A stretch of DNA of 61,231 bases from a virus. Shown in pieces: positions 1 to 61,231 of the stretch. The stretch covers positions 1 through 61,231 of IMG/VR virus record IMGVR_UViG_3300042516_004065. The stretch is one strand, 5' to 3'. The stretch's first letter is position 1. Each line of letters begins with the position of its first letter. The notes under the pieces are model-generated. The model was given only the letters and a program-made list of their open reading frames with translations, did not search any database and was not told the origin of the DNA. The position numbers were made by a program, and so were the translations under genes.

Positions 1-157
1 CTATGATGGCAGCTCTTGGCAATTGCCGAAGGCTGTTGCCTCCACGTCAGCTAGCGGTTTTCCAACAAATCCAACTGATGGGCAGCTGCATTATGATAAA
101 TCTGCTCCTGGACTTTATATTTACAACGGCACCAGTGCTAGTTGGGTTGCCATTTAA
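1..157 (+). CDS. Tail-fibre-like protein, C-terminal fragment
   Basis: The reading frame is open from base 2 to a TAA at 155-157 and enters from outside the window, so only about 51 C-terminal residues are seen. The sequence is rich in Gly, Ser, Thr and aromatic residues and ends YNGTSASWVAI, a pattern typical of the tip of phage tail fibres (DGQLHYD...LYIYNGT...W). It lies directly before a plus-strand run of further fibre genes, which supports a virion role. The exact class of fibre cannot be told from this fragment. Confidence 0.7.
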   Translation, partial: YDGSSWQLPKAVASTSASGFPTNPTDGQLHYDKSAPGLYIYNGTSASWVAI

Positions 158-402
158 ATCTTATGGTTCATCATGTAGTCCCAAATTCGATCAAGCTTCT
201 GGTGAACAGCTTGCATCTCTCTGAGAAAGTCTTGCTTTAATACATAATCACGAATGATTGTATTTTCTAAACGATCATAGTTGGTTTCAATTTTTTCAAA
301 CCTGGTATTGATTCGCTCGTTAAAAGTTGAAAGTGATTTGGATAGCCCTGTAAATGCTGCTAATCCAGCAGTAATAGCTGCAATAATTATCTCAGGAGTC
401 AT
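154..402 (-). CDS. Small membrane and coiled-coil protein
   Basis: 82 residues. One hydrophobic segment lies near the N-terminus (about residues 4-20, IIIAAITAGLAAFTGL), followed by a charged helix with coiled-coil character and the C-terminal pattern DFLREMQAVHQKLDRIWDYM. It is convergent with the fibre gene to its left and overlaps its stop by 4 nt. I recall cyanophage hypotheticals of this shape. Topology (N-terminal anchor, cytoplasmic or periplasmic coiled coil) would fit a lysis accessory such as a holin or spanin-like factor, but that is inference. It is the only minus gene inside the left tail cluster. Confidence 0.65.
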   Translation of the reverse strand: MTPEIIIAAITAGLAAFTGLSKSLSTFNERINTRFEKIETNYDRLENTIIRDYVLKQDFLREMQAVHQKLDRIWDYMMNHKI

Positions 403-475
403 CTATACAAGACTAACCTCTAATTATTCTAAAGGATTTAACAACTTAGAATAAACCTAAGGCTCAGAGAAAGCT

Positions 476-880
476 GTGGCAACTCAGGTACAATTTAGAC
501 GTGGCTCTACCGGTGAGACTTCCGTTTTTACCGGAGCACTGGGTGAAGTTACTGTTAACACTTCAGAATTTACTTGTGTTGTACACGATGGAAGTACCGC
601 TGGAGGCTTCCCTTTGTTGCGCCAGGATGGCAGCAACATGGCACTGTCTCCAGGTAGTTTATCAAGCTGCGCTCTAAAGTTTGCTAATGATCCAAACACA
701 GGAATAATTAGCTCTGGCCCTGATCAACTGTCTCTTGTAACCGGTGGTGTTGCGCGAGTTACAATAGATTCATCAGGCACCTCAACTGTTGTCGGTAATC
801 TTATTGTTACCGGTAGTATTACAGCACTAAGTGGCCTTATTCAAGGCGACGTGATCCCTTTGATTTTGGCTTTAAGTTGA
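476..880 (+). CDS. Tail-fibre protein with VQFRRG N-terminus
   Basis: 134 residues, GTG start. It opens with VQFRRGST and continues GALGEVTVNTSEFTCVVHDG, the N-terminal signature common in cyanophage tail-fibre and baseplate-associated proteins. A later module (PNTGIISSGPDQLSLVTGG) also occurs in the 590-residue neighbour (SNTGIFSPGADQIGLATAG), so the two proteins share a repeated building block. It would be a virion surface protein. It is followed after 1 nt by the next gene, so the two are probably co-translated. Confidence 0.75.
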   Translation: MATQVQFRRGSTGETSVFTGALGEVTVNTSEFTCVVHDGSTAGGFPLLRQDGSNMALSPGSLSSCALKFANDPNTGIISSGPDQLSLVTGGVARVTIDSSGTSTVVGNLIVTGSITALSGLIQGDVIPLILALS

Positions 881-17285: not shown

Positions 17286-17441
17286 ATGCCAACACAACTC
17301 ATCAAGAAATACATTGAGGAGTTTGCACGTTGGCTCCGCAACCAACCAGATTATGATGACTTCGATTACGGAACCGAAGTCATTCCTGGCGACAAAACCT
17401 GGTGTAAGAAGTGCGACACCTGTAAGTGCAAAAAGGATTAA
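17286..17441 (+). CDS. Small Cys-knuckle protein
   Basis: 51 residues, ATG 2 nt after the previous stop. N-terminal helix, an acidic Tyr/Asp middle (PDYDDFDYG), and a C-terminal WCKKCDTCKCKKD cluster with four Cys in nine residues, a likely metal-binding knuckle. It overlaps the primase-helicase stop by 4 nt (convergent). Small size, clean operon spacing and a coherent sequence support it. Confidence 0.6.
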   Translation: MPTQLIKKYIEEFARWLRNQPDYDDFDYGTEVIPGDKTWCKKCDTCKCKKD

Positions 17442-20053
17442 TCCTCTTTGCCTTCAGGAAGAATAGTCGGTAGATCTTTAAATTTCTGATCAGAGTTACG
17501 GATAGCAAGTCCTTTGACAAAGGGTTTACCACCTTTGCTAAAGGTCCGCACGTCATCCAATCCCAGTTGGTTTTTGCAGCAATCAAGCAGCAGGTTAATA
17601 AATCGTTTCTGACCTACAGCTTTAGATCCTGTGGCATCACAGTATTCACAGTAACTGGGATACAGGTGATAATTACTGTTGACATACCGTTCATTGGTTT
17701 CTTTATTGCCGTTTGGAATTTTTTTACCAACAGCAGTAACGTGATCAGCCTGAACCACTTCTGATTGCAGCCATTCAATTAGGTTATTGCTGTTAAGCAG
17801 GATGTTATTACGAACACGGCGCAGTGCTGGCACCATTTCATTAGTATCTAGCAGGTACTGACGCATGGTTTGTTCATCCATCTCCAGCACCCAGTTCACA
17901 AGACCTGGCAGATAGTCCTTCCAAAGACCTGAAACCCGACCATGTTCAATCTTGATCATGTCTTTGGCTTCACTATTGCGGTCATATAAGGGCCTATTGA
18001 ACTCAATTGTTAAGCGACGGCGGCTTAAACCACTGGTGTTATCGGTGGTCTGAATAGGTTCATTAGCTACTACCATGACCATGCCGGTGTACACAAACGG
18101 TTCACCGATGGGCTTGAGCTTTTCTTCATAACGAAGGGAGTCACCACCGGTCAGTGCCTTGAAGGTCTGAGCAGAACCACCATACCGCTCCGAGTCATTG
18201 ATCAGTGTCAGGCGCTTGCCCTTGATGGAGGACAGCTCAAAGCGGCTTTGCTCCAACTGGTTGAGGGTGGTGCTAGCGTAGTTCCCACTACCAACCAGAG
18301 CGCAGCAGAGGTTGGCAAAGGTGGATTTACCTCGACCACCTGGACCAATTACTTCAAAGAAACGTTGAATTTCATTACCGCGCCCCACCAAACAAGCACG
18401 GAGCCATGCCCGCAGCACATTAACCCTGGCCTCATCACCATATTGAGTGCGATAAAGCCACTCGGTAATGGGACCGGGATCAGCTTCTGGGATGTAATCA
18501 ATATCAAGACCCCAGATAATGAAGTGATCTGGAGTGTGTTCTAAAAATTCTTTGGTGTCCAGATCGTAGACACCGTTACGGAATGCAAGACGGGAGGGAT
18601 CGTCATTCCACTGGTATTCGGTGAGGTGCCCCTCCAGCAGAGCACACACATCATTAACGAGATGAGAAGTGTACCCGCCAGGGAGAGAAGTGTTTCCGAG
18701 GACAAACTGGACCTCATGCTTAAAATCCTTCGTATGATCTTGCTCATTCCATACACCGCGTTGGCGGTCATACTTCATAAACCTATCAAATCTAGGGTCG
18801 TATCGCCAACCATTTTTGTTAAACATTGGCGAGATAAAATTGGCAATCTCAGAAGCAGGTGGGTTACGCGTTGCTCCCTTCTGCTTTTTACCACTGGGGA
18901 GAGACGGTTGACCAGGAATCCGTACCAGTTCTAGTTCACCGTCATCACCAAAAAGGTCTTCTGGCAGCTCAATGCCACCAAACAACTCAGCAAATAGATT
19001 GCTTTCATCGTGTTCAACGGTGCCATCGTTATCCATGGCAGCACGTTTTTTGATGGTATCAATGGAAGGAACAACAAATCCTCCCATATCAATGTAACCA
19101 TCTTCTTTTGCTTTAGCCCGAAGCGTCTTCAGACCCCTGGCACCCTCAGGGTTTGGACCACCAGGAAGACGTTCAAAGCTAGACCACTTACGTTCACAGG
19201 CACCATCTTCAAATTGATCGGACTGAGAAGACCATTCAATCCATGCTTCCAGTAAGCACTCATCAATCTGATGAAGAGACATGCCAACAGCAAGCCATTC
19301 TTCGTAGTCATCAGCCCGTTCTTCTGATAGTGCAGAGAGGTACTCAAGTGCTTCTGCAACAACAGTTTCCTGATGGTATTTGGAATCTGTGTCGTAATTA
19401 AGAGTAATGCTCTGAGTTACAACAGCACCAACAGGAGAAGTACGTTTTCGGTAGCGGCTGCTGGGATAAGCCCGAGCAATGGCTTCATAGAGCCACTCTG
19501 GCATTTCTGGTAACCGCTTGGCATACTCAAAACCACCGTGTGGTGTTGTGGAATAACCAGCAGTATCAGGGTGTGCACCCATCAATGCACCTTGCCGAGA
19601 CCTCCAAAGGATTTCCCATGGCGCCTTATCAACTTTGATAGTGGCTTTATCGGGTAGTTGTTGGATACGCTCTGGCGGTACCCGGAACAACATACGAAAC
19701 TTCCCCGGTTTCCCACTGGTAATCGTCAGTGTGGGAGGAAAAATCTCATTAATTGGACCACCACCTAGCTCTTCGATGACGGGGATTGCATCTTCCCCAT
19801 CCACATCAACAAAGATCAGAGCAAGGTCATTACTCCATTGTCCACAAAGGAGACCAACCCCAGTTGCACGTCCCTCTTCTAATTCTTTACGGATTTCACC
19901 AATTGTTTTTGGATCGCTAGTCCAGCCCGGAAGATAAGCTTTCTTCCCTTGCAACGGAGTAAGGGGAAAATCCGCAGGAATCAGATCAAGATTGATCTGC
20001 CCTGGAGACAGATGCTTATGAGGGGGCTTGGGTTCTGGAGTAGCGGTCGTCAC
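17438..20053 (-). CDS. Primase-polymerase / SF3 helicase
   Basis: 871 residues from GTG 20053. N-terminal Prim-Pol-like domain with LTPLQGKKAYLPGW and the metal motif FVDVDG (D83, D85). PriCT-2-like segment at about 248-295 (DDYEEWLAVGMSLHQ, ending KWSSF). D5_N-like region about 480-560 (FRNGVYDLDTKEFLEHTPD). SF3 helicase: Walker A GPGGRGKST (570-578), Walker B near LTLINDSE, motif C VVANEP (661-666) and an arginine finger SRRR (677-680). It would prime and unwind phage DNA at the fork, partnering with the family-A polymerase at 34-36 kb. Confidence 0.93.
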   Translation of the reverse strand: MTTATPEPKPPHKHLSPGQINLDLIPADFPLTPLQGKKAYLPGWTSDPKTIGEIRKELEEGRATGVGLLCGQWSNDLALIFVDVDGEDAIPVIEELGGGPINEIFPPTLTITSGKPGKFRMLFRVPPERIQQLPDKATIKVDKAPWEILWRSRQGALMGAHPDTAGYSTTPHGGFEYAKRLPEMPEWLYEAIARAYPSSRYRKRTSPVGAVVTQSITLNYDTDSKYHQETVVAEALEYLSALSEERADDYEEWLAVGMSLHQIDECLLEAWIEWSSQSDQFEDGACERKWSSFERLPGGPNPEGARGLKTLRAKAKEDGYIDMGGFVVPSIDTIKKRAAMDNDGTVEHDESNLFAELFGGIELPEDLFGDDGELELVRIPGQPSLPSGKKQKGATRNPPASEIANFISPMFNKNGWRYDPRFDRFMKYDRQRGVWNEQDHTKDFKHEVQFVLGNTSLPGGYTSHLVNDVCALLEGHLTEYQWNDDPSRLAFRNGVYDLDTKEFLEHTPDHFIIWGLDIDYIPEADPGPITEWLYRTQYGDEARVNVLRAWLRACLVGRGNEIQRFFEVIGPGGRGKSTFANLCCALVGSGNYASTTLNQLEQSRFELSSIKGKRLTLINDSERYGGSAQTFKALTGGDSLRYEEKLKPIGEPFVYTGMVMVVANEPIQTTDNTSGLSRRRLTIEFNRPLYDRNSEAKDMIKIEHGRVSGLWKDYLPGLVNWVLEMDEQTMRQYLLDTNEMVPALRRVRNNILLNSNNLIEWLQSEVVQADHVTAVGKKIPNGNKETNERYVNSNYHLYPSYCEYCDATGSKAVGQKRFINLLLDCCKNQLGLDDVRTFSKGGKPFVKGLAIRNSDQKFKDLPTILPEGKED

Positions 20054-20172: not shown

Positions 20173-21093
20173 TTAGGCGTCGCCGTCCACCACATCCATA
20201 TCAATCTCAGTCTTATTAAGAGACGGCAGAATCTCAGAATAATACTTATTTACAGCATCCAGCCACTTGTTCTTGTACTTTTCAATGGTGCCGCCCTGTA
20301 CAGCAAACACTTGGGACCGTTCCCGTGTTGCAACAAAGATCATCATGATCTCAGGAACAATTCCAACGGTGTGCTCTAGTGCCATGGCATAAGCACCCAT
20401 CTGCATCATGCACTTCTGATACTTCATGAAACCAGCACGTTTCATTCCGTACTCGCTTTTCAAGGTTTCAGGTCCTGGCCACTTACTGAAATACAGGCCA
20501 TTACTGGTTTTAAGGTCACCAAGAACCACTTTTCCTTTGTACTCTGCCACGATGTCAGGAGCACCAGCCCAACCCCATGTTTCGCTCTCGTGAACACCTG
20601 GATGCCAGACTCGGGAGATACCATCACCACCCATCGTCCAAGCAAAATCATTAGGATTGGCAGGGTTTTCAGCCCAGACCACCCGTTCCAGCTTGTCAAG
20701 TTTCTCAGGAAGCTCTTTCCAGAAGTCATAAATCTCTTCATCATCAATCTGCGGATTCTTGTTGATACCAAGAAGATACTCCTCCATTAAAGAGTGAACA
20801 CGGGTACCACGTGCAGCTGCTGCTTCTCGTCCACCTGGATTCTTTTTTGCCCACCGCTCTAATGCTGCCTTGTTACCACCAGTTGCTGAGAGGATTGTGG
20901 TAACAGAGGGAAGCGCACCGTAAGGAGTTTTGTAGTGGCGACTACCGTTAATTTCTACACGGGTATCCCCTTCTGAACGGTAATCCAAGAACTGCTCATA
21001 CGATGCAGTTTTAGAGTACGGCGTATAAATCTTGCGCTCTAGTTCTTCTATTAAGCGAACGTCTGCACAAATTTCATCCAGTACAGCAGGCAC
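20173..21093 (-). CDS. PD-(D/E)XK exonuclease
   Basis: 306 residues, GTG start. RGTRVHSLMEEYL (about residues 95-107) supplies the early His/Glu motif; WGWAGAPDIVAEYKGK then VVLGDLKTSNG gives the GxPD...D-x-K core; KYQKCMMQMGAYAMALE gives the Q-xxx-Y motif. This matches RecB/Cas4-like and MGME1-like nucleases used in phage recombination or DNA end processing. It lies directly upstream of the primase-helicase in the same direction. Confidence 0.85.
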   Translation of the reverse strand: MPAVLDEICADVRLIEELERKIYTPYSKTASYEQFLDYRSEGDTRVEINGSRHYKTPYGALPSVTTILSATGGNKAALERWAKKNPGGREAAAARGTRVHSLMEEYLLGINKNPQIDDEEIYDFWKELPEKLDKLERVVWAENPANPNDFAWTMGGDGISRVWHPGVHESETWGWAGAPDIVAEYKGKVVLGDLKTSNGLYFSKWPGPETLKSEYGMKRAGFMKYQKCMMQMGAYAMALEHTVGIVPEIMMIFVATRERSQVFAVQGGTIEKYKNKWLDAVNKYYSEILPSLNKTEIDMDVVDGDA

Positions 21094-24215: not shown

Positions 24216-24557
24216 TCAGGGACTGGACAGAGGCTTGGGCTCTATCTGCCCGATCAAAAAGAGCGGGAACTTGTTTACTATAACAGAATTTAAATAGAAG
24301 TGGGTCGGACTACTGGGCTTCAAGCTCGGCGGCTTGGGGCGGCGGAAGGCGCGAAGGTTCTCGCTTACATTTTTCCAGTCATCTACTACTAGCCACTCAC
24401 AGCACGCTTCCAGCTCCTGATCAGCGCCCCAGCGAGCGGCTTGGGCGGCGATGTACTCTTGCCACGCCACTGGATCGCGTGGATTCTTGCGTTGCGCTTG
24501 CTGTGCCCAGAGTCGACGCAGCTCCGGCGGTGGGGTGATCGGGTGTTTCTCAGTCAT
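24216..24557 (-). CDS. HPITPPPEL-family paralogue 1
   Basis: 113 residues. N-terminal HPITPPPELRRLWAQQ, middle YIAAQAARWGADQELEACC and EWL, then LRAFRRPKPPSLKP. I know this family from cyanophages and picocyanobacteria, with unknown function. The last 30 residues after SLKP lose the pattern (usually EQAL..L), so this copy is truncated or extended by read-through. Its ATG lies within ATGACTGA, an 8-nt overlap with the upstream copy. Confidence 0.7.
   Translation of the reverse strand: MTEKHPITPPPELRRLWAQQAQRKNPRDPVAWQEYIAAQAARWGADQELEACCEWLVVDDWKNVSENLRAFRRPKPPSLKPSSPTHFYLNSVIVNKFPLFLIGQIEPKPLSSP
24391..24446 (-). repeat. Near-identical paralogue DNA block, copy A
   Basis: Shares agccactcacagcacgc and ctcctgatcagcgccccagc, with scattered single-base differences, with copies B (24740-24790) and C (26552-26606). 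It encodes ADQELEACCEWL. The high DNA identity, greater than needed for the protein, indicates recent duplication or gene conversion. Confidence 0.8.
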
Positions 24558-25248
24558 TGAGTTGCTCTAATGCGCGGCGGATAAGTTCAACCTGGGTTCG
24601 TGAAAGTTCGGCTCCGTTGGGATCAGCAGTCAGGTTCAACTCGCTCAGGGCCTGCTCCTTCAATGATGGCAGTTTTGGGCGGCGGGTCGCGCGAAGGTCG
24701 TCAACCACGTCAAACCCCTGCTGTCGCAGCAGATGGCAACACGCCTCCAGCTCCTGATCAGCGCCCCAGCGGGCGGCTTGAGTGGCGATGTCTAGAAGTT
24801 TTTCTCTTGAAAGAGTGACCATGATCATCTTTCGCCGCCCATCGGTGAACTCGGGCAAATCGCGCCACTGCTCTACCAGCTCCGGCGGTGGGGTGATCGG
24901 GTGTTGTTGGTTAGTCATTGAATTTCTCCCAAGGTCATCAATTTGATCCGCGTTATAAGCAGTATGAAGATCGTGTAATGCCCGCTCCTTTATACTTTTT
25001 GGACGCATCGCTTCCTTCAATGATTCTCCCACTGGGGTGATCCTTAGGTGAGGTTCATTCAAGGCATTGTGATCCAGCCACTTTGCATCTGCAATTAGTT
25101 GCTGGTTAGCACCCCACGCAGCAGCACAGTTTGCTATGTGGATCTCGTAAAGCCAATCGCGTTCGTCGTAATCCTTTTCATTAGCCCATTGTTCAATAAT
25201 CTCACGTGGCGGCACCATTTTGTTGGCGCTAACAAATTGGTCAGTCAT
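24550..25248 (-). CDS. Tandem HPITPPPEL-family protein (two copies fused)
   Basis: 232 residues from ATG 25248; the upstream extension to 25386 overlaps a separate small Cys-rich gene. First unit (residues about 12-100): VPPREIIEQWANEKDY, NCAAAWGANQQLIADAKWL. Second unit: MTNQQHPITPPPELVEQWRD, ATQAARWGADQELEACCHLL, DLRATRRPKLPSLKEQAL. The first copy is more divergent. The fused arrangement and near-identical DNA with neighbouring copies point to duplication. Ends LIRRALEQLND. Confidence 0.72.
   Translation of the reverse strand: MTDQFVSANKMVPPREIIEQWANEKDYDERDWLYEIHIANCAAAWGANQQLIADAKWLDHNALNEPHLRITPVGESLKEAMRPKSIKERALHDLHTAYNADQIDDLGRNSMTNQQHPITPPPELVEQWRDLPEFTDGRRKMIMVTLSREKLLDIATQAARWGADQELEACCHLLRQQGFDVVDDLRATRRPKLPSLKEQALSELNLTADPNGAELSRTQVELIRRALEQLND
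24740..24790 (-). repeat. Near-identical paralogue DNA block, copy B
   Basis: Contains cacgcctccagctcctgatc followed by agcgccccagcgggcggctt, matching copy C except for a few bases. Confidence 0.8.
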
Positions 25249-25265
25249 GGTGTTAGTTGATCGGA

Positions 25266-25439
25266 CTACTGGGTCTTGGGCGTAGCGGGCATGTAGTAAG
25301 CGCAGATGTGCGCTCGCTCGTAGTTGAGGTTTGCCGCCCATGACAGGAGAACATTGTCTGGGATTGGTGCAGTGTGTCTGAGGCAATGTTGCTTTGCGGG
25401 GCAGCCTGTGCCGTGACAGCGTGTGATGTCTTTGAGCAT
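25266..25439 (-). CDS. Small Cys/His-rich protein
   Basis: 57 residues, ATG 25437-25439 to TAG 25266. MLKDITRCHGTGCPAKQHCL has three Cys spaced C-x4-C-x5-C, then a Trp/Tyr-rich tail with HICAYYMP. I know short cyanobacterial and phage proteins of this form (CxGxxCPxxxxC). Likely binds zinc or another metal. It fits exactly between its neighbours, which the longer frame through this region does not. Confidence 0.65.
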   Translation of the reverse strand: MLKDITRCHGTGCPAKQHCLRHTAPIPDNVLLSWAANLNYERAHICAYYMPATPKTQ

Positions 25440-25451
25440 TAGTGATGTTGA

Positions 25452-25691
25452 CTACTGGGCTTCAAGCTCGGCGGCGATGGCGAGGAGGTTTTGACGCACG
25501 TCTTGCATTGTTTCACCGTAAATGTCGTTGTCCTCATGCCAAAACTTTGGCACTACTTGATCCGCAGCAGCACGCAGGGCGGCAACGGCATTGGCACGAG
25601 CCCAATACCGCTCTGGACCCGTTGAGTTTTCTGTGTGCAGGGCATCCAGCACTGCCTGCGCGGCGGGGCTCAGTGGGGTGGTGTCAGTCAT
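25452..25691 (-). CDS. Small hypothetical protein
   Basis: 79 residues from ATG 25691 (ATGACTGA overlap of 8 nt with the upstream gene). MTDTTPLSPAAQAVLDALHT, then RYWARANAVAALRAAADQVV and a C-terminal helix ending AAELEAQ. This Ala-rich family is common in cyanophages; role unknown. Confidence 0.65.
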   Translation of the reverse strand: MTDTTPLSPAAQAVLDALHTENSTGPERYWARANAVAALRAAADQVVPKFWHEDNDIYGETMQDVRQNLLAIAAELEAQ

Positions 25692-25866
25692 TGAGTAGAC
25701 CTCCATCAACGAGAGCATCACACCATTCCTTGAATGGCGCCTCGATCTGAGCCATGGCTTTGTTGTCCACGGCGCTTGGATCGCGGATCATGGCAATGGC
25801 AAGGCCAAGAGCATCACCGAGGCGATTCTCAAGGCTGTTTAGTGGCACAAATTTGAAGTCAGTCAT
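25684..25866 (-). CDS. Small hypothetical protein
   Basis: 60 residues. MTDFKFVPLNSLENRLGDAL, then AMAQIEAPFKEWCDALVDGG. Starts with ATGA overlapping the upstream stop and ends LLND, its stop inside the next gene's ATGACTGA. Tight translational coupling is therefore likely. Confidence 0.65.
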   Translation of the reverse strand: MTDFKFVPLNSLENRLGDALGLAIAMIRDPSAVDNKAMAQIEAPFKEWCDALVDGGLLND

Positions 25867-26766: not shown

Positions 26767-27363
26767 TCAGGTACTTAACCTTTTACAACGCTCATAAACA
26801 AAGGAGAATCCAGGAACAAGTTGAGCTGCTGCTGGCGCTGAACCGTCATCTGTAGCAAGTGCATCACGCACCCGATCTTTATCAGGTAAATCCTCTTGCT
26901 TTACATCTACAACAGTGTTGTCTTTAATGCGCGTTATTGTCGTGGTCTTACGCAAACCAAACTCAGTCTTATCTTCCTCCTCCCAGTGTTCAAAGTTATC
27001 TACAAGACGTGGCTTAACTCTACGAATCGTAGCTTGATATTTAGTACCAGTTGGCTTGTTATCAATCAGATTCTGTTGATAAGCAAACTTAACAATAGAA
27101 ACCATCTTTTCCCGGTTCTTTTTCCATGCATCTAGGTTTTGTTTGATCTCATCCATCTCTGTTTGTAATGCTTCAATATAAGCATCACACTTTTTAATCA
27201 TGCCGATGATGGCATCAAACTTGGACTCCTGGCGAGAAGCCAGATCGTGAAGGTGCTGCTCCAGCATGGCCCGCTCATCCTCAGGGATGTCAGGCATATC
27301 CTTCAAAAAGCTGATGTGCTGGATGGATTCAGCAATTTGGATCAGGGAAAGCTTGTCAGCCAT
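26767..27363 (-). CDS. Siphovirus Gp157-like protein
   Basis: 198 residues from ATG 27363 (MADKLSLIQIAES). N-terminal helix pair, long coiled coil (about residues 50-90; DAYIEALQTEMDEIKQNLDA), then FAYQQNLIDNKPTG, YQATIRRVKPRLVDN and a C-terminal KDxDRVRDAL-like segment. This layout fits the Gp157 family, found next to SSB and recombinase genes in phages and linked to DNA recombination or resistance. A TTGCACACC leader precedes it. Confidence 0.75.
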   Translation of the reverse strand: MADKLSLIQIAESIQHISFLKDMPDIPEDERAMLEQHLHDLASRQESKFDAIIGMIKKCDAYIEALQTEMDEIKQNLDAWKKNREKMVSIVKFAYQQNLIDNKPTGTKYQATIRRVKPRLVDNFEHWEEEDKTEFGLRKTTTITRIKDNTVVDVKQEDLPDKDRVRDALATDDGSAPAAAQLVPGFSFVYERCKRLST

Positions 27364-27387
27364 GGTGAGTAATGTCGTGGTGTGCAA

Positions 27388-29971: not shown

Positions 29972-30721
29972 TCAGAAAGGAACATCGTCACCGTTGATAC
30001 CGGCTGGTACGTCCTGCTGCAAAGGAGGCAGTTGCACAGAGGACTGATAAGGCTCCGCTGTTACAGCTGCTGGCGACTCAAACCGATTGCCAGTGTTGAC
30101 AGCCCGCAGCTCATTCTGTTCTTCCTTCTTCTTGTTCTTACCAAAGAAGGCATAGGTACCACTCTTCACGCGGACCTGATACATACCACGCTGCTGACCA
30201 TCCTGTGTGGTCCAGGTGTTGTAGCGGAGCACGCCAGACACAGCGATCTGCCGTCCCACATGGAGGTTTGCAGTCATGCGCTTAGCATCATCACCCCATG
30301 CTTCCATGCGGAACGCAAGGCTGTCATCCCAAGTGTGGCCAAGGATCTGCTGCGCTGGAGCTGAGCACATCAGCGAGAAAGTAAACAGATCTTCCTTGTT
30401 TTGTTCTGGAATAAATCCCACACCACCAGCAAGATTAACCTGATTAACTACGAGGTTAGGGGGAGCAATCTGAAACACCTGGTTAGGAACCAAGTACATC
30501 TTGTAATCTTGACGGTTGGGATACAACCGACCTCCAACTAATAATGTTGCACCAGGTTGAAACACATCAAAGGTTTCACCTGCAGCTTTATTAGGTACAA
30601 CAAGTAGAGGAACTTGTGCACCTGAATTACCTACCTTTGGAAGATTGATTTGCACAAAACGCAAACCATTATCCATAAATTTCTCACCGGCATAAATACC
30701 AGTGGCAAGCAGATTGTTCAT
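29972..30721 (-). CDS. ssb: Single-stranded DNA-binding protein, two OB-like domains
   Basis: 249 residues. N-terminal OB-like half (residues about 1-95, GIYAGEKFMDNGLRFVQINL) and a second, more SSB-like half (about 110-195) with LMCSAPAQQILGHT, GRQIAVSGVLRYNTW and GMYQVRVKSGTYAFF. A Gln/Pro-rich linker leads to the acidic tip INGDDVPF, the classic SSB C-terminal protein-interaction tail. It coats ssDNA during replication and recruits partners. Start 2 nt after dCMP deaminase stop. Confidence 0.85.
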   Translation of the reverse strand: MNNLLATGIYAGEKFMDNGLRFVQINLPKVGNSGAQVPLLVVPNKAAGETFDVFQPGATLLVGGRLYPNRQDYKMYLVPNQVFQIAPPNLVVNQVNLAGGVGFIPEQNKEDLFTFSLMCSAPAQQILGHTWDDSLAFRMEAWGDDAKRMTANLHVGRQIAVSGVLRYNTWTTQDGQQRGMYQVRVKSGTYAFFGKNKKKEEQNELRAVNTGNRFESPAAVTAEPYQSSVQLPPLQQDVPAGINGDDVPF

Positions 30722-34346: not shown

Positions 34347-36194
34347 TCAGTGAGTTTCTTGCCAGTTCTTACCTGTCCTGGCTTCACCAGTAAGTGGACA
34401 CTTCAACTGAAAGTACTCACCAGATTTACGGAACGAATCAATAGCTAGCTTGGTATAAAGATCAACGTACTCAGGCTTAACTAAAGCCTGATATTCATCG
34501 TGTACGTGTGCAACAAATCCCCAGTCCTTTGCAAAGACTAATCCTTCATTAGTTAAATCATCATAAAGAATTGTTGTTGCTTTCTTTACCGCAATCGCTC
34601 CCGTCGATTGGAGGAGTTGGTTGAGGGCTGAATGTTTAGAGCGAATCTGTAACCGTCTGCCGTCAATACCAGTAAGATAACCGCGTTGCGTAATGCGTTC
34701 TTCGATGAGATCTTTAAGCTTCTTGATAGCAGGTAGATTCCGATAGAACGTATCAATGGTTTTCTTACCCTGCTGGTACTGGGTATTTTCACCTTCGTCA
34801 GGAGAAATAATGGATCCAGTCTTTTTTGCACCGCCACCATACAAGATGCAATAAATAAGCCGCTTCGATAGATCACGGGTAGCCTTGCTGATCTCGCCTA
34901 CACCATCGTAGATCCCAAAGAGTTTGGCATTGTATGTGTGGATATCAAAACCCTCAGTGCTGACTAGCCTGGCGTACTCACCATCATCAAAGTAAGCAAG
35001 CCAGGAGCCTAGCGCCCTGAGTTCGAGTCCAGAAGCATCAGCACCAACCAACAACCAACCATCAGGAGCATAAAACAGAGCCCTGCACTCAGCTCCAAAA
35101 GCGTGACCAACACTGGGGACTTGGGCCATGTTGGGCCGTTTGTGGCTACATCTGCCGCTAATGCAAGTGTTAGTAATAACTTCGCCATGAATACGGCCAT
35201 CGTTATAGATCCTGCAATGGTTTAACCACGCTTCCTTCCCCTCTGCGATTTGACCAAGCCTTTTGTTAAAGAGTTGGTACTCAGCCAACAACTTAGCTTC
35301 TGGATATTTCTGACCAAGAGATTCCAGAACGTCATCATCCACCTTGGGCTTACCCTTTTTCGTGGATTCAAATGTAATCTCAGGGTACTTAGCTCGTAGC
35401 CGCTGCGAGATCTGTGTCCTGGAGGCAGGATTGAATACTGTAATCTCTGTTTTAAGTTGTTTGCCAGTCTTTTCCGACCAGCGTTCTTCCTCGATTGGCG
35501 GGAAGGTTGTTTGCAGTTCATCCTCAAGCTCAGAGCGTCGAGCTTTGAGCGTGTTGACCAACGCATAGGCTGCCTTTTCATTGAAGGGAAACCCAAATGT
35601 TTCCTGCTGCATCATGACCAGAGCAAACTCATGCTCTAGTTGCTGACACCTGGGGTCAAGCTGTTGGCAGGAAAGATATTCATATAGTCTAGTCGATACT
35701 TCTACGTCACCTTCACAATATGTTTGCATTGTAGGAGTCCATCTTTCCCACACATCTTCTACTTCATCGTTATCTTTTTTACTTTCTTCTTTGAAGTTAA
35801 TCTTGCTTACGCCAAGGCGCTCACCCCAGGCTGCTAAGCTGTGGCGACCAAAGTATTTACGTGGGATATGTGAAAACTTAGCAGCATCAACAGGCTCTAA
35901 CTCGGGCCACATAACCCTACTAACAACTAACGTATCGTAATATTCAACATTAGGTTTAAGTTGTAAGCTTGGATATATTTTTTTAAGGGCAGGTATATCA
36001 AACTTGATAACGTTGTGCCCAACAATTAACGTGGCTTCTCTTATAAAATCAAGGGCCATCTCAAGGCTGTGATAACCAGGTTGATCAGCACAGCTAATGA
36101 TGTTACCTGTATCTAGATCACGCAGAACAATACAATGGATCGTGTCCATCACTGGCAACAATCCATTACTCTCAAGGTCTAGAACAAGTCTCAT
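34347..36194 (-). CDS. Family-A DNA polymerase (3'-5' exonuclease + polymerase)
   Basis: 615 residues. Exonuclease motifs: DLESNG (D6, E8), GHNVIKFDIPAL (N61, D66) and YCEGDVEVS (Y159, D163). Polymerase: RCSHKRPNMAQVP (348-360), motif A DASGLELR (386-393), motif B R440-x3-K444-x3-Y448 in RDLSKRLIYCILYG, motif C HDE (565-567). T7-type layout without 5'-3' exonuclease. The residue equivalent to E. coli Phe762 is Tyr448, which in phages correlates with virulent life style. Starts close after a 36.2 kb gene; replicative enzyme of the phage. Confidence 0.96.
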   Translation of the reverse strand: MRLVLDLESNGLLPVMDTIHCIVLRDLDTGNIISCADQPGYHSLEMALDFIREATLIVGHNVIKFDIPALKKIYPSLQLKPNVEYYDTLVVSRVMWPELEPVDAAKFSHIPRKYFGRHSLAAWGERLGVSKINFKEESKKDNDEVEDVWERWTPTMQTYCEGDVEVSTRLYEYLSCQQLDPRCQQLEHEFALVMMQQETFGFPFNEKAAYALVNTLKARRSELEDELQTTFPPIEEERWSEKTGKQLKTEITVFNPASRTQISQRLRAKYPEITFESTKKGKPKVDDDVLESLGQKYPEAKLLAEYQLFNKRLGQIAEGKEAWLNHCRIYNDGRIHGEVITNTCISGRCSHKRPNMAQVPSVGHAFGAECRALFYAPDGWLLVGADASGLELRALGSWLAYFDDGEYARLVSTEGFDIHTYNAKLFGIYDGVGEISKATRDLSKRLIYCILYGGGAKKTGSIISPDEGENTQYQQGKKTIDTFYRNLPAIKKLKDLIEERITQRGYLTGIDGRRLQIRSKHSALNQLLQSTGAIAVKKATTILYDDLTNEGLVFAKDWGFVAHVHDEYQALVKPEYVDLYTKLAIDSFRKSGEYFQLKCPLTGEARTGKNWQETH

Positions 36195-55968: not shown

Positions 55969-55990
55969 GGAGCGACCGAAGGGAGCGGAT
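55969..55990 (-). repeat. GCGACCGNAGGGAGCGG element, copy a
   Basis: agcgaccgaagggagcgg on the plus strand, one of four related copies in 55.9-58.1 kb. It stands just before the HNH-AP2 gene. Confidence 0.6.
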
Positions 55991-56009
55991 AGCACCCTCC
56001 GGTTTCGTC

Positions 56010-56234
56010 CTACGCTTCGATGAAACGCTGCCAACCAAGTTCTAACTGATTACTCAGCTTGTAGCCTTGGTTGACGAGCTTCTTCACACTGGAGCGGATG
56101 TGCTCGATAGGAGCTTCCAAGCGAATGTACTTGGATACCTGGCGGTCGAGGTCAACCTTGGTCATCTCAGCAAAATCACCACGGATGGTGACGAGATAAC
56201 CGTCGTTGCCTTTCTCGTAGATGAATGATTCCAT
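56010..56234 (-). CDS. Small hypothetical protein
   Basis: 74 residues from ATG 56234 (MESFIYEKGNDGYLVTIRGD). YIRLEAPIEHIRSSVKKLVN follows. Mixed alpha/beta, basic C-terminus. Leader ATTCTTTGCACACTTCCTAACC-ATG after a 6-bp hairpin. Confidence 0.6.
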   Translation of the reverse strand: MESFIYEKGNDGYLVTIRGDFAEMTKVDLDRQVSKYIRLEAPIEHIRSSVKKLVNQGYKLSNQLELGWQRFIEA

Positions 56235-56256
56235 GGTTAGGAAGTGTGCAAAGAAT

Positions 56257-56273
56257 GTGATCATGAAGATCAC
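56257..56273 (-). other. 6-bp stem-loop before TTTGCACAC leader
   Basis: GTGATC-TTCAT-GATCAC, followed by ATTCTTTGCACACTTCC and ATG 56234. Confidence 0.7.
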
Positions 56274-56310
56274 AGAGAAGGAAGAACTTTGTCTTCCCTC
56301 TGAGGGATCA

Positions 56311-56565
56311 TCAATTGCAGTCGTCGGGTCCCCGACCAAAGGCATCGTTATTGAGCAGAGCCTCTAGCTCTGCCTCGACTTCCTTGGGGATGGTGTAAGC
56401 ACCATCGTTGGGTGCAATCAGATCTGCTACCTTGCGGCGCAGTCTGTTGACACCGTAGTGAAGCTTCTGACGCTGCTCATCATTCAGCTGGGCGTAGGCA
56501 ACAGCACTACCGATGACAACGCCACCGGCAATGCTGGCTTTGACAAGGTTGTTGAAAAAAGACAT
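56311..56565 (-). CDS. Small membrane protein, paralogue B
   Basis: 84 residues from ATG 56565. SFFNNLVKASIAGGVVIGSA with a hydrophobic first 25 residues, then a basic helix KLHYGVNRLRRKVADLIAP. Similar in layout to the next gene upstream (hydrophobic segment, basic helix with GxNRLRxKxADL-like run). It carries the copy-2 TGCAAAC hairpin in its leader. Confidence 0.62.
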   Translation of the reverse strand: MSFFNNLVKASIAGGVVIGSAVAYAQLNDEQRQKLHYGVNRLRRKVADLIAPNDGAYTIPKEVEAELEALLNNDAFGRGPDDCN

Positions 56566-56610
56566 AGCAAAGCAAAGTGAAGGTAAGCCACAGGATTGTG
56601 GCAAAAGCTA

Positions 56611-56631
56611 GACCAGGGTTTGCACCTGGTC
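56611..56631 (-). ncRNA. TGCAAAC hairpin, copy 2
   Basis: Minus strand GACCAGG-TGCAAAC-CCTGGTC, 7-bp stem and 7-nt loop. The bases before it (ATCCGTGAAAGCGGGG) match copy 1. It lies between the stop at 56640 and ATG 56565. Stem pairs differ from copy 1 in a compensatory way. Confidence 0.6.
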
Positions 56632-56639
56632 CCCCGCTT

Positions 56640-56945
56640 TCACGGATTAGCTGGTTCAGCAGAAAGAACTTCTGCTTCAACCACCTGGGGTTGCTCAACA
56701 GCAACCCACTTGGCAAGGCGGTTACGACCTGCGTTAAACAGGGTCTTCACCGTCTTGCGGCCATGTGGAGTGCTGCAATACACAGCAACTCCACCTACAA
56801 TCGCAGCAGATATAACAACTGCCTTGACTGTGGGGTTGTGCCTCTGGCTTTGAACAGCAGCGACAGCGTCTTCTGCAGCGCCTTGGATTTCAAACCAAAG
56901 CTCTTCAGTAATGGCCACAGGATTCTCCTGTTGTGCGGTGCCCAT
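56640..56945 (-). CDS. Small membrane protein, paralogue A
   Basis: 101 residues from ATG 56945 (GCGGAG ribosome site). GTAQQENPVAITEELWFEI, then hydrophobic VVISAAIVGGVAVYCST and basic KTLFNAGRNRLAKWV. It ends AEPANP, the last codons being part of the shared repeat. The copy-1 TGCAAAC hairpin is in its leader. Paired with the next gene as duplicate, single-pass. Confidence 0.62.
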   Translation of the reverse strand: MGTAQQENPVAITEELWFEIQGAAEDAVAAVQSQRHNPTVKAVVISAAIVGGVAVYCSTPHGRKTVKTLFNAGRNRLAKWVAVEQPQVVEAEVLSAEPANP

Positions 56946-56966
56946 CTCCGCTGGGGGCAATAACTG

Positions 56967-56987
56967 CCGGAGGGTTTGCACCTCCGA
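56967..56987 (-). ncRNA. TGCAAAC hairpin, copy 1
   Basis: Minus strand (T)CGGAGG-TGCAAAC-CCTCCG(G), 6-7-bp stem with 7-nt loop. Preceded by ATCCGTCAAAGCGGG as in copy 2. It lies in the leader of the gene at 56945. The stem's outer two pairs are G-C where copy 2 has C-G: compensatory change. Confidence 0.6.
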
Positions 56988-57057
56988 ACCCGCTTTGACG
57001 GATCAGTTAATAACAAAAAAAGAAAGAACTTTCTCTTCCTGATCAAGCAAGAAGAGA

Positions 57058-57078
57058 AAGCGACCGCAGGGAGCGGTA
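57058..57078 (-). terminator. Weak terminator or GCGACCG element, copy b
   Basis: ACCGC-TCCCT-GCGGT (57063-57077) followed by CGCTTTCTCTTC on the minus strand. The stop of the upstream gene is at 57081. U tract is weak. Confidence 0.55.
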
Positions 57079-57080
57079 CC

Positions 57081-57281
57081 TCACCACAGGTGAAGTTCAT
57101 ACTTGCCGTAGGCGGAGTAATCCGCCCACTTCTCAATCATCTGCTGGAGTGACCAGCGGATTGGAGAGTCAGCACCAGGCGAGCAGATCGGAGTAGGCTC
57201 CTCCCCCTGGCGCTGGTCATAGAGGTAAGTACCTCGCTGGTCGCACAGTTTGAGACCGTGCTCCGTAGTAATAAAGATCAT
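57081..57281 (-). CDS. Small hypothetical protein
   Basis: 66 residues from ATG 57281. IFITTEHGLKLCDQRGTYLY, then SPIRWSLQQMIEKWADYSAY. Compact beta-plus-helix. The frame upstream continues through an upstream small ORF, so the internal ATG fits better. Confidence 0.6.
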   Translation of the reverse strand: MIFITTEHGLKLCDQRGTYLYDQRQGEEPTPICSPGADSPIRWSLQQMIEKWADYSAYGKYELHLW

Positions 57282-57288
57282 GGTTAGA

Positions 57289-57465
57289 TCAGAGTTCGTA
57301 GTTGTTGGCGATGCACCAGTCACGGTGCACCTGGTCAGCGTGTGCAGGCCACGCATGGTTCTTGCATTGCTCAGCCGTAGCCTGATCAAGCAAGTGGAGT
57401 GTCAGCTGAGTGAAGGCTGCTATGCCAATAGCAACGCAGCACACTGCAGCGCCTAGTTTCTCCAT
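57289..57465 (-). CDS. Small secreted or membrane protein
   Basis: 58 residues, ATG 57463-57465 to TGA 57289-57291. MEKLGAAVCCVAIGIAAFTQ: N-terminal hydrophobic span like a signal anchor; then a Cys/Trp-containing tail. Below usual calling limits. Its leader has CTTTGCTTG after a 6-bp hairpin at 57486-57501. Confidence 0.6.
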   Translation of the reverse strand: MEKLGAAVCCVAIGIAAFTQLTLHLLDQATAEQCKNHAWPAHADQVHRDWCIANNYEL

Positions 57466-57823
57466 GAGAAAACAAGCAAAGAACAGCAGTCTGAGGACTG
57501 CATCTAGGAGGAATAACTAGCTCCTGGAGGCAATCTTCTGAACAATCTTGCTAAAAGTATTTCTAGTTATATAAAAATCAGGGTTGAAGATGAGGCTGAC
57601 AAACAGCCAAACAGCCTCTAAATCGTGGCTGAGATCCCAGTAAAAAGATTTAGTGCCTGTGGAAAAAGTGCAACCAATTTTGTAACAGATATCCTGACAA
57701 AATAGCTAAGAAGCGTTGGTATGACTGGGGTTTAAGGGAGAATAGGGTGTGTAGGTAGGTATAAATACCCTGTGGAAAACTCAAAAAGCGACCGGAGGGA
57801 GCGGTTGCTCCCCCTTCTCCGGT
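57466..57823. promoter_or_regulatory. Gene-free region with DnaA-box-like sites
   Basis: 358 bp. TGTGGAAAA (TTTTCCACA on the minus strand, close to the cyanobacterial DnaA box) occurs at 57659-57667 and 57771-57779. GAGGCTG/CAGCCTC with an alternative GGCTG/CAGCC pairing lies at 57590-57617, and a hairpin at 57486-57501. No coding frame is convincing. Near the junction of the minus block and the plus genes at 58.3 kb. Confidence 0.45.
57783..57808 (-). terminator. Terminator, GCGACCG element copy c
   Basis: GCGACCG-GAGGGAG-CGGTTGC on the plus strand; on the minus strand the stem (one A-C mismatch) is followed by TTTTTG. It stands just after the stop of the gene at 57824. Confidence 0.65.
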
Positions 57824-58108
57824 TCAGATGAGGTCTTCGGGATCGAGGACCCAGAGGTTGGCCATAGTGTTCTCGATTTGCCGCTGGTTCCAGCTGGCTG
57901 CTTCGGGCTTAAGTGCCACGAACTTCTCGAATTCCTCAACAAACCACTGTGGCAGGACGCCACAGATTGGTGCGCCGCCGATAGAATCTTTGGCGTAGAC
58001 ATTGTTCGCCGCCTGCTGAAGCATTGCTGCGTAGCTCACAGTAATAAAACAAAGGACACATCCGAATAGAACTTTCTCTACGGCTGTTCCTGCGACCGGA
58101 GGGAGCAT
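57824..58108 (-). CDS. Small membrane-anchored protein
   Basis: 94 residues from ATG 58108 (GGGAG ribosome site five bases upstream). LPPVAGTAVEKVLFGCVLCF then ITVSYAAMLQQAANNVYAKD: a hydrophobic segment of about 18 residues, then a periplasmic-looking Cys-containing tail. Most rightward minus gene; divergent from the large plus gene. Confidence 0.58.
   Translation of the reverse strand: MLPPVAGTAVEKVLFGCVLCFITVSYAAMLQQAANNVYAKDSIGGAPICGVLPQWFVEEFEKFVALKPEAASWNQRQIENTMANLWVLDPEDLI
58092..58106 (-). repeat. GCGACCG element, copy d (partial)
   Basis: gcgaccggagggagca, matching the first 14 bases of copy c. It overlaps the start region of the gene at 58108. Confidence 0.5.
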
Positions 58109-58285
58109 ATACTCCCACCCCTTTCTTTTTTTCCTCTCGCACGCTCCTGCGAGCAGAGCGAGCTTGATGTCTCCCCCGATTTTCACCCTTAAAGCTAGGT
58201 TTTTAAGGCCGTTAGGGGATCTTTCCTGGCGTTAATACTGTATTGATTGCGCCTAAAATCGTTATATCTAGGTATATCTATAAAA

Positions 58286-60640
58286 ATGCCCGTTTCTCCG
58301 CAAGATTATGCACTGTGGGCAGCTGCAACTGGCAATCCGTACCCTAAAACTGCACAAGAAAAGGCACGTTTAGCGCCTGAAGTGTATGATTTCAACCGGG
58401 GATTTGGTAAATTTCGCGGTTTTGATGAAGTTCAAGGGTTTCAAGGTGATGTTGTTTATGATCAACCCGCTTCAATTCGCTATAACGACGATAATTCACT
58501 TCTTCAATCGCCAATTACACCTGATAACAACATCCCAAAGGTTGCAGGTCAGCTCAATAACAGCCTGACGGGGCGGCATTACACCCAGTACCACGCTGAT
58601 GACGCTGTTGAAACCGGCTTTGGTGGAACTGAGCAGCCAAAATCACTCCTTGAAAAGGCTGCATTAGGGGCGTTAGGGGTCGGTGCTGTTGCTGCTGGCG
58701 TCTACGGTGCCCAAAAATTGACGGGCCGTGATCTTGGTGTTGGACGAGTTGGGGGAATGGTGCGTGATCTAGGTCAACGCGCTAAAGCTGGGATCAAATC
58801 TGCGCTTGGCATTGCTCAAGAAGCTGCTGATCCTAATTTTGTTACCCGTGAAGGTGCAGAAAACATTCTTTCTGTAGCACAACACGGTACTTCTGCGATT
58901 GATGACGTTGCACCTGGTGTTGTGCGAGCGCAAAACGTGGTTCCGGCAGAAGTTCGTGTTAATCAGTCCCTGAAATCACGGATTCCAGACCCCTGGGGTG
59001 AATCTGCTCTTGGTAGCGCCGGTCAAACCATGGTTTCGCCAGCAGAGCAGAGTGTTATTGGAACACAGACCACTGCTGCTGGCGTTGATCCTGATATTCA
59101 GTCCCGTATTTCGCAGTTTACACAGAAGATTGGATATAGCACTCCGATCACACAAGCACCTTCTGCTTTGCCTAGTGTTGCTCCAACTGAAACTTCTGTT
59201 CTTGGTCGGTTCCCTGGCCCTGAAGGTTCATCTGCTACTGGCGTAACCTTTACTCCAGTGCAAGGCGCAATTGAAGGGCGTCCTGCTCGTTATACCGTTC
59301 TGCCTCGCGGAACTGTAGAAGAAGGTGCTGAAGAAGCTGCACAACTAACTGGCCTTCTTAGTTCGCAACGCCCTATTCCTGCAGGTGCTCTTTCTAATAC
59401 ACAGCGCACGTTTTCAGCTGATCCACGTGTTGCTACAGCACAGAAACAAGCAGAAGCAATTTTCCAAGCAACTGGCGATCCAAGTGTAATTCGCGGTGCT
59501 TATGGTGAGTCGCTGTCAATGCCAACCCGTGTTGTTCTTCCTTCTGGGGAAAGTGTCCCCACGGGTTCTTTATATGAAGCATTTGGTCAGACAGTAAATC
59601 CACAGACTGGTATTCCTGTTGTTCAATCTCGCGCTGAATCTTTGCAAGCTGCACTCAATATGCAGAGCCAGATGAAAGCGCGTGCTCTTGAACAGTTAGG
59701 AGTTCCTTCTACTTATCAACCTTCCCAAGCACAACTCCAACAGTTAGATCCTCGCACCAAGCGTTTACTTGGCCAGACTGCAAGTGCAAGTGAGGTAGCA
59801 CGTAACCGTTTGCAACAAGCAGAAGCTTCTCAACTTCTCTACAAGTTAAAGCCTGAGATTACAGAAGGTATTCGTGAAGTGCCTATCATCAGTGAAGCTA
59901 CTGGTGAAGTTGTTGGCTCTCGTGTTGTTCCTGAGGTACAAGGCATTCCCACCAGTGAGTACTACCAAATGCGTGCTCGTGGCGGCGCAGGTCGTCAAGA
60001 AACTGGTGGCATTGGTCGTCGCCGTGAAGTTATTGAAGGAATGGAAGGTTTGACGTTTGGTGTAGGTGCCGGTTCTTTAGAAGATGTAACTCCTGTTCTC
60101 TACAAAGGTGTTGATGATGTAACAGGTCAAGCAGCTGTATTCCGCCCGGAAGATGTCAGCCCCATGCAGATTGCCACTGGCGCAGTCACTCCTGTTCGTG
60201 GTACTGCTGTTGAACCTCAGCGCATTATGGGCCGAGAAGGTCGCACCTTTAAAGGCGTGGCAGCAAATGTAATTGATCCAGCTTCTTTTGATCCTGCAAT
60301 CCTTTCTCAAATTGCAGAAGCAACACCTGAGCGCATTGATCCCACCACTGGCCTTGCCTATAGCCAGCAAGCAATGGGTGGTGAAAAAGCCGCACAACGT
60401 CGCCGCCAGATTGAAGCAATGCGTCAGAGCGGCCAACGGGTTAGGGGACGTATGGGGACAGAGCTTCCTACCAGTGTTGTTCGTGGTGGCGCAATTAGTG
60501 AGTCTGGTGTTGACCCTGCTTTGGGTACGCGTTTTGCTCGCCGTGGCCGTGCACCGGAAGGCAGCGCACGGGCTCAGCAGATTGAGTTAATGCGTCAGCG
60601 TGATGAACTAGTTCGTAAAGCTCTCCGTGGTGAGTTATGA
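58286..60640 (+). CDS. Large virion-like protein
   Basis: 784 residues from ATG 58286 (MPVSPQDYALWAAATGNPYP). Ala/Gly/Gln-rich; short hydrophobic run LGALGVGAVAAGVYGA near residue 125; long Gln/Pro-rich middle; C-terminal Arg-rich segments (QRRRQIEAMRQSGQRVRGRM, ARAQQIELMRQRDELV). This looks like an internal virion or ejection protein. No enzymatic motif. It starts a plus run leading out of the window. Confidence 0.62.
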   Translation: MPVSPQDYALWAAATGNPYPKTAQEKARLAPEVYDFNRGFGKFRGFDEVQGFQGDVVYDQPASIRYNDDNSLLQSPITPDNNIPKVAGQLNNSLTGRHYTQYHADDAVETGFGGTEQPKSLLEKAALGALGVGAVAAGVYGAQKLTGRDLGVGRVGGMVRDLGQRAKAGIKSALGIAQEAADPNFVTREGAENILSVAQHGTSAIDDVAPGVVRAQNVVPAEVRVNQSLKSRIPDPWGESALGSAGQTMVSPAEQSVIGTQTTAAGVDPDIQSRISQFTQKIGYSTPITQAPSALPSVAPTETSVLGRFPGPEGSSATGVTFTPVQGAIEGRPARYTVLPRGTVEEGAEEAAQLTGLLSSQRPIPAGALSNTQRTFSADPRVATAQKQAEAIFQATGDPSVIRGAYGESLSMPTRVVLPSGESVPTGSLYEAFGQTVNPQTGIPVVQSRAESLQAALNMQSQMKARALEQLGVPSTYQPSQAQLQQLDPRTKRLLGQTASASEVARNRLQQAEASQLLYKLKPEITEGIREVPIISEATGEVVGSRVVPEVQGIPTSEYYQMRARGGAGRQETGGIGRRREVIEGMEGLTFGVGAGSLEDVTPVLYKGVDDVTGQAAVFRPEDVSPMQIATGAVTPVRGTAVEPQRIMGREGRTFKGVAANVIDPASFDPAILSQIAEATPERIDPTTGLAYSQQAMGGEKAAQRRRQIEAMRQSGQRVRGRMGTELPTSVVRGGAISESGVDPALGTRFARRGRAPEGSARAQQIELMRQRDELVRKALRGEL

Positions 60641-60671
60641 CATTTAGAATGATCATTATTAGGGAGGTATT

Positions 60672-61106
60672 ATGACAACCCTAGAGCCAATCATTGCCCT
60701 GCTGCTTGGCGCTGGTTTAACTGCTAGCGCTGGTTGGTTATCGCGTTTGATTGCTGCACGCAACTTAATTAAATATGGTCCAATCTTGGCCCGTGTTTAT
60801 GACATTTTAGATCCACTGCTGGAACGTAATATGCGTTCGTGGAGTGGATCTGATGTTGAGTTTGCAGTTGATCTTGCTATTGAATCTGTTGCTGATGGTC
60901 ATTTAACTGCAGCTGAATTAAAAGAGTTAACTCTTGAAATTACGAAGCGTTGGTTGCCACAAGTTGCAGCAGATAAAGTGCGTCGTTATGAGTCAATGGC
61001 GGACCGTCCTAAAACCATGGTTGCTGCTGATCTTTTAACAGATGTTGTTTCTGGTCAAGCACAGAAACAAGAAACCATCAACAAAGTGAAAGCACTTCTT
61101 AAGTAA
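60672..61106 (+). CDS. Small protein with N-terminal membrane segment
   Basis: 144 residues. TTLEPIIALLLGAGLTASAG: one hydrophobic segment near the start, followed by helices (YDILDPLLERNM, FAVDLAIESVADGHLTAAEL, ending KQETINKVKALLK). A holin-like or virion membrane-contact protein are both possible. AGGGAGG is a good Shine-Dalgarno upstream (60661-60667). Its stop overlaps the next start (TAATG). Confidence 0.65.
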   Translation: MTTLEPIIALLLGAGLTASAGWLSRLIAARNLIKYGPILARVYDILDPLLERNMRSWSGSDVEFAVDLAIESVADGHLTAAELKELTLEITKRWLPQVAADKVRRYESMADRPKTMVAADLLTDVVSGQAQKQETINKVKALLK

Positions 61107-61231
61107 TGGCTGAGGGAAAAGGTAACTGGATTAAAGGCGCTATCAAAAAGCCTGGCGCCTTTTCTGCACAAGCAGAGAAAGCCGGGATGAGCACAGAAGA
61201 GTTTGCAAAAACTGTTACTGAGAATCCCGAT
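61106..61231 (+). CDS. Virion-region protein, N-terminal fragment
   Basis: 42 codons, open at the right edge. MAEGKGNWIKGAIKKPGAFS then AEKAGMSTEEFAKTVTEN. The WIKGAIKKPGAF motif is frequent in short conserved phage proteins of the structural region. It suggests that more structural genes follow outside the window. Confidence 0.68.
   Translation, partial: MAEGKGNWIKGAIKKPGAFSAQAEKAGMSTEEFAKTVTENPD

Follow-up and report, generated by a model that had tools for sequence, protein, structure and literature searches.

CTGGCG is a maintained, strand-specific genome word in one lineage of phages

The hexamer CTGGCG is a maintained, strand-specific genome word restricted to one phage lineage. Individual sites turn over between relatives while their polarity is retained, the surplus of copies stays with one physical strand regardless of gene direction, and the polarity does not flip along the contigs; together these observations argue that the word is maintained. 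Our tentative explanation, to which we give less than an even chance, is that CTGGCG would mark where the PrimPol-helicase encoded by the phage primes the lagging-strand template as replication proceeds in one direction.

The window and its genes

The window is the whole IMG/VR record IMGVR_UViG_3300042516_004065, a stretch of 61,231 bases that is probably a fragment. Genes were called mechanically as the longest ORF. It belongs to a family of uncultured viruses. Judged by the primase, the closest named relative is the freshwater Synechococcus phage S-EIV1 (36% identity), and from this relationship we infer that the host is a picocyanobacterium. The genes most relevant to the analysis are the following.

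17438..20053, minus strand: primase-helicase (Prim-Pol, PriCT-2, D5_N, DUF5906; PF09250, PF08707, PF08706, PF19263; PHROG DNA primase), candidate reader of the word
20173..21093, minus strand: exonuclease (PHROG match, phrog_298), second candidate, in the replication/recombination module
26767..27387, minus strand: Gp157/Mu Gam-like protein (phrog_253, E 3e-6; PF05565 under its cut-off)
29972..30721, minus strand: single-strand DNA-binding protein (PF00436, E 2e-9)
34347..36194, minus strand: family A DNA polymerase (PF00476, E 8e-42)

The Prim-Pol, PriCT-2, and D5_N domains of the primase all score above the Pfam cut-offs. The exonuclease is 74–98% identical inside the clade and 42% identical to its counterpart in the sister group described below. 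The sequence of the Gp157/Mu Gam-like protein suggests a possible role in DNA-end protection; no counterpart was matched in the polar contig G004. Tail fiber and endolysin genes and two tRNAs are also encoded.

Contig G001 (80,807 bases), 99.99% identical to the window across 58.5 kb, also contains genes for the terminase, portal, and major head protein, a head module encoded on the strand that corresponds to the window's plus strand. The last 2.7 kb of the window (58247–61231), with a 797-aa plus-strand ORF that has no PHROG match, fails to align to G001. This ORF (58247–60640) was tested as a terminase and is not one; the terminase lies in the part absent from the window. Other features stand apart from the word. 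GC-rich minus-strand ORFs at 24216–26734 have in common several diverged repeats that are 60–100% alike; they belong to phrog_32006 (function unassigned), with relatives in the clade, the sister group, and S-CBS2. The virion structural protein encoded at 31763–33073 (phrog_1645) is 62–73% identical to proteins of T4-like cyanomyoviruses and Puniceispirillum phage HMO-2011, and its gene is common to very different phages. Four copies of GCGACCGNAGGGAGCG lie at 55972–58116, near an HNH endonuclease gene.

Strand polarity of CTGGCG in the window

An earlier note on this DNA had put CTGGCG at about 52 copies on the plus strand and its complement CGCCAG at about 15, with roughly 9 of each expected from composition. 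Exact counting gives 52 and 18, with base composition predicting 9.6 and 9.1; the imbalance is confirmed, and CTGGCG is the most polar hexamer in the window. The sites are as follows.

Plus strand, CTGGCG majority orientation, 52 starts: 1057, 1648, 3420, 7157, 12016, 12234, 15760, 17386, 19672, 21219, 23180, 24040, 26281, 26832, 27229, 29853, 30070, 31118, 31236, 31714, 32660, 34969, 36380, 38528, 38772, 39549, 39776, 39821, 43590, 44995, 46777, 46921, 47297, 47718, 48039, 49115, 49838, 52056, 52227, 52272, 54172, 54641, 55241, 56139, 57207, 58226, 58695, 59079, 59238, 59472, 60177, 61152
Minus strand, CTGGCG minority orientation, 18 copies, near expectation (position of the word's 5' end): 60409, 59042, 53743, 50537, 49416, 47600, 45004, 40644, 30237, 28742, 18681, 15293, 11171, 10695, 9616, 1359, 1092, 625

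Words with another first base are unpolar (TTGGCG 17:17, ATGGCG 13:11, GTGGCG 13:14); the specificity that the note had claimed thus stands, although the counts it gave for them (about 8, 9, and 6) were too low. Minus genes hold the two orientations at 28:9, plus genes at 17:9, and intergenic regions at 7:0, in the same sense as the 36:8 and 16:7 from which the note had concluded that the word follows the physical strand.

As a null we shuffled synonymous codons within each gene, keeping the protein. This codon null gives 18 ± 4 CTGGCG (averages 16–18) and 11 ± 3 CGCCAG, so the ratio in the window is partly due to coding. The count of 52 was never attained in 600 codon shuffles, and 13–18% of the shuffles hold some hexamer that is as polar (|z| ≥ 4.06). 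In the window alone, the polarity of CTGGCG is therefore only suggestive and borderline with respect to the look-elsewhere effect.

Polarity across the clade

Related contigs were fetched by primase and structural-protein searches, and in a pattern count most contigs whose primase resembled that of the window were likewise imbalanced. Six were read whole and oriented to the window by DNA alignment. The polarity recurs in each, with CTGGCG:CGCCAG at 64:21, 84:27, 60:20, 66:15, 39:12, and 53:13 (total 366:108). Pooled, CTGGCG tops all hexamers for polarity (z 11.9), and it also ranks first in five of the six when each is taken alone; the six include G001, near-identical to the window over 58.5 kb, and are not six independent additions. 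Because relatives are not independent samples, we relied on tests of site turnover and on four diverged contigs. Pooled, these four give CTGGCG a z of 9.3, whereas the null maximum over all hexamers is 5.6 ± 0.4 and at most 7.0 in 120 codon-preserving replicates. Further primase-bearing contigs agree (G194, 32:14; G008, 26:11; G193, 20:5).

Most one-letter neighbors are near balance in the six contigs. The uneven ones, CTGGCA (237:133) and CTGGTG (337:215), show no dependence on physical strand in the clade contigs once coding is accounted for; CTGGTG, the core of E. coli Chi, was thus rejected as a polar word, although it is enriched in these phages.

Eight contigs were pooled to compare observed with expected counts by region. 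In plus genes the ratio is 1.76 for the majority orientation and 1.68 for the minority; in minus genes it is 3.16 and 1.08, and between genes 4.8 and 1.0. Gene-read CTGGCG thus stands at 1.76 in plus and 1.08 in minus genes, and gene-read CGCCAG at 1.68 in plus and 3.16 in minus genes. These comparisons within the same coding sense differ by strand for both words, which argues that the physical strand matters in both. Per-kilobase counts repeat the pattern in every clade contig. The intergenic sites, 44:8 with both orientations under one null, are set against a simple shuffle that probably runs low, and some may fall in missed small genes.

Codon and protein composition together with a look-elsewhere effect would account for a ratio of ~1.6–1.8 to 1, which the codon null already produces, and for the borderline standing of the window alone. 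The same-strand excess in minus genes (3.2-fold), the intergenic 44:8, and a pooled z above all 120 nulls leave this explanation next to no chance and refute it at the clade level. Codon bias, which the note had named among the findings that would overturn its claim, gives 18:11 in the window and is exceeded by the clade-level excess in every one of the 120 nulls.

The sites themselves turn over. None of 17 sites in the aligned regions of G003 and G004 is common to both, and the private sites are still biased (17:4 and 12:4); G001 and G007 have 11 of 28 sites in common, with private sites at 17:8 and 23:7. CTGGCG occurs at a density of ~0.7–1 per kb on one strand, and the sites are spaced nearly at random, with slightly greater regularity in a few contigs. 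The note had asked whether the polarity flips at the origin; no change was detected along any of the six long contigs.

Strand-asymmetric mutation during one-directional replication, which would generate the word without a function, is consistent with this uniform polarity and with the turnover. We consider it very improbable, as single-base neighbors are nearly balanced, the GC and AT skews of these contigs are small and reverse along their length, and the word shows a 2–5 fold enrichment, not merely a skew.

Type III restriction sites are asymmetric, and genomes that hold them in one orientation escape cutting, as T7 does with EcoP15I. Avoidance of one orientation of such a site is an exceedingly remote explanation for CTGGCG: it predicts loss of one orientation and not gain of the other, and counts of the minority orientation equal or slightly exceed expectation (1.0–1.7 times). 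The modification system raised in the note likewise finds no support, as no depletion is seen.

Several apparent cases of polarity outside the clade were rejected. AT-rich phages with the structural gene found at 31763–33073 looked polar (for example, 10:0 and 16:2), but 80–95% of their coding is on that strand and the null accounts for most of the bias. G013 and G015 at first resembled polar lineages of independent origin, but their sites track gene direction, and 19 of the 46 reverse sites of G013 fall within one 6-kb stretch; in S-CBS2, S-CBS4, P-SS2, and S-CREM1, forward majorities mostly track coding. Separately, locus L025 (contig IMGVR_UViG_3300020043_001842) starts with a 96% identical primase end but has 58% GC and CTGGCG at 7:30, many of the sites lying in one stretch at multiples-of-three spacing; it is possibly a repetitive gene or a chimeric contig.

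A second word and the sister group

A search for a longer motif in the flanks of CTGGCG failed, as the flanks add little; CCCTGG emerged as a second polar word, built on the same core. It occurs at 31:8 in the window and in the clade at 216 observed against 93 expected by the codon null, with 96 against 82 in reverse. In the S-EIV1-like sister group CCCTGG is the top word (284/101; reverse 149/89), and CTGGCG is unremarkable (113:88). S-EIV1 itself carries CCCTGG on both strands (46:37) and shows no enrichment of CTGGCG (17:14 versus 22:14 expected). Logistic fits around CTGG assign additive weights to a preceding CC and a following CG in the clade, and to a preceding CC and a following T in the sister group. 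We read CTGGCG, the stronger, and CCCTGG as one loose motif, 5'-(CC)CTGG(CG)-3', with a different form in each group; the alternative is a pair of distinct words.

Proposed priming by the PrimPol-helicase

In the tentatively favored priming model, an enzyme moving one way along phage DNA would read CTGGCG, and selection would keep the word on one physical strand. We infer that the reader is the candidate Prim-Pol/PriCT-2/D5 primase-helicase. The fork would go one way round the genome and Okazaki primers would start at words on the lagging-strand template; hence only one strand would accumulate sites, at ~0.7–1 per kb, a density on the scale of Okazaki fragments. The sister group, with its diverged primase, would retain only the CCCTGG word.

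Wherever a polar contig spans the region, it encodes the PrimPol-helicase, at no less than 63% identity. The primase is absent from the 11 other cyanophages searched, and four of these, picocyanobacterial phages, were tested for CTGGCG and show no clear physical-strand excess. Between the clade and the sister group, whose words differ, the primase is 35–37% identical and the terminase and major head protein are 64–70% identical. PrimPols recognize short template words, 5'-CCTG-3', 5'-GTG-3', or 5'-TTTGGTTA-3' (PMC8718748), and such primases are partnered by DNA-binding PriCT domains (PMC5862659).

AT-rich contigs that encode a 61–62% identical primase and lack the CTGGCG word count against priming, as does the presence of CCCTGG on both strands of S-EIV1. 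The whole replication/recombination module diverges together between the clade and the sister group, so the primase is not singled out. Lactococcus phage 1706, with its known priming word CCAAC (PMC12205980), served as a test of whether primase words become polar and did not bear this out: CCAAC is only marginally enriched in that phage (z 1.8), so a priming word does not have to turn polar.

Another one-directional phage factor, such as the packaging motor, an exonuclease, or an unknown protein, may instead use CTGGCG. All of the evidence for a directional, lineage-specific word applies to such a factor, and the primase is only one of many genes that are clade-specific or have diverged from their sister-group counterparts. 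We regard this as unlikely, if well short of negligible, since no specific candidate has known word recognition, and conservation between the groups with different words is highest for the terminase and head proteins.

A possible Chi-like role and host chromosomes

As the main rival to priming, CTGGCG may be a Chi-like site that switches a RecBCD-type nuclease of the host from degrading DNA to recombination, a possibility we consider somewhat doubtful but only a little less probable than priming. After each terminase cut, the concatemer end outside the capsid would always be open to RecBCD from one side; one orientation would protect and become enriched. A RecC relative is present in seven of seven genomes tested from picocyanobacteria, the presumed host group, and in none of four other cyanobacteria; marine Synechococcus and Prochlorococcus have recBCD (PMC5101192), and Chi is over-represented in coliphages without RecBCD inhibitors (PMC3784561). 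In lambda RecBCD has access to the right end alone and reads Chi starting at the site's 3' side (PMC2082072). The terminase, portal, and major head protein genes are transcribed on the CTGGCG strand, the orientation that Chi predicts if the packaging direction follows gene order; this fit amounts to one bit of evidence. CTGG-G also resembles E. coli Chi, GCTGGTGG.

Host chromosomes argue against a Chi-like role. In two complete Cyanobium-like chromosomes, with origins placed by dnaN, both strands carry CTGGCG in equal excess over the codon null (observed/expected 769/541 and 667/486 in one, 639/481 and 642/464 in the other; raw counts 692:587 and 639:642). CTGGCG was thus rejected as a host Chi judged by replication polarity, and its polarity, for which the note had proposed a host comparison, is not shared by the likely hosts tested. 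The same analysis does detect a polar word, GGTGAGGG (119 observed/48 expected leading, 47/31 lagging), and so had the power to see one. In a third, AT-rich host chromosome, forward CTGGCG sites are about evenly spread. S-EIV1, which has a Synechococcus host, does not show the excess, nor do the four picocyanobacterial phages mentioned above show it clearly, and the window may encode a DNA-end protector (the Gp157/Gam-like protein), though one that is not conserved in G004.

Separately, in both Cyanobium-like chromosomes sampled, G079 and G090, no octamer is more biased to the leading strand relative to the codon null than GGTGAGGG (loci L243, L245, L255–L294; 57:18 and 62:29). The octamer is similar to E. 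coli KOPS, GGGNAGGG, and may serve picocyanobacteria as a KOPS or a Chi.

The note had proposed a replication, recombination, or packaging guide. Behavior of this type holds up, with Chi-like and primase functions both remaining candidates, but a KOPS-like function does not: polarity does not flip in the six contigs, the likely hosts carry the other leading-strand word GGTGAGGG, which is missing from these phages, and no FtsK was found among the scanned phage proteins.

If the word marks primer starts, lagging-strand initiation and replication direction would be readable from phage sequence alone, and the recognition codes of PrimPol-helicases would become comparable across lineages. If it is Chi-like, it would be, to our knowledge, the first candidate Chi in cyanobacteria. 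A review that describes recBCD in picocyanobacteria names no cyanobacterial Chi (PMC5101192). Under either reading, a specific, strand-bound word lends itself to cheap direct testing.

Comparison with known systems

KOPS (FtsK-orienting sequences) are likewise short, strand-polar words along a replicon; the flip of KOPS is absent here. EcoP15I sites in T7 show a similarly strong hexamer strand bias, but there one orientation is missing, whereas CTGGCG gains in one orientation and is depleted in neither. E. coli Chi and Chi-rich coliphages share with CTGGCG an oriented, enriched word with a CTGG-G core, RecBCD-bearing hosts, and the orientation expected from packaging. Unlike E. coli Chi, CTGGCG is not replication-polar in the tested likely hosts and is not enriched in a Synechococcus sister phage, and it is denser than Chi in coliphages (0.2 per kb; PMC3784561).

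In its broadest form, the priming model holds that a phage-encoded primase-helicase reading a six- to eight-base word has distributed its initiation sites over one strand of the entire genome, spaced on the scale of Okazaki fragments, and that the word shifts as the primase diverges between sister lineages; this would be rather less than likely. Our literature search found no report of a PrimPol word in excess on one strand throughout a phage genome. The PrimPol-type (archaeo-eukaryotic) primases of phage NrS-1, pRN1 ORF904, and BcMCM likewise combine a Prim-Pol with a PriCT or helix-bundle domain and a helicase and use a short template word, with CCTG among those reported (PMC8718748). Their words have three or four bases; CTGGCG, with six, exceeds most known primase words, and its reader is predicted from sequence.
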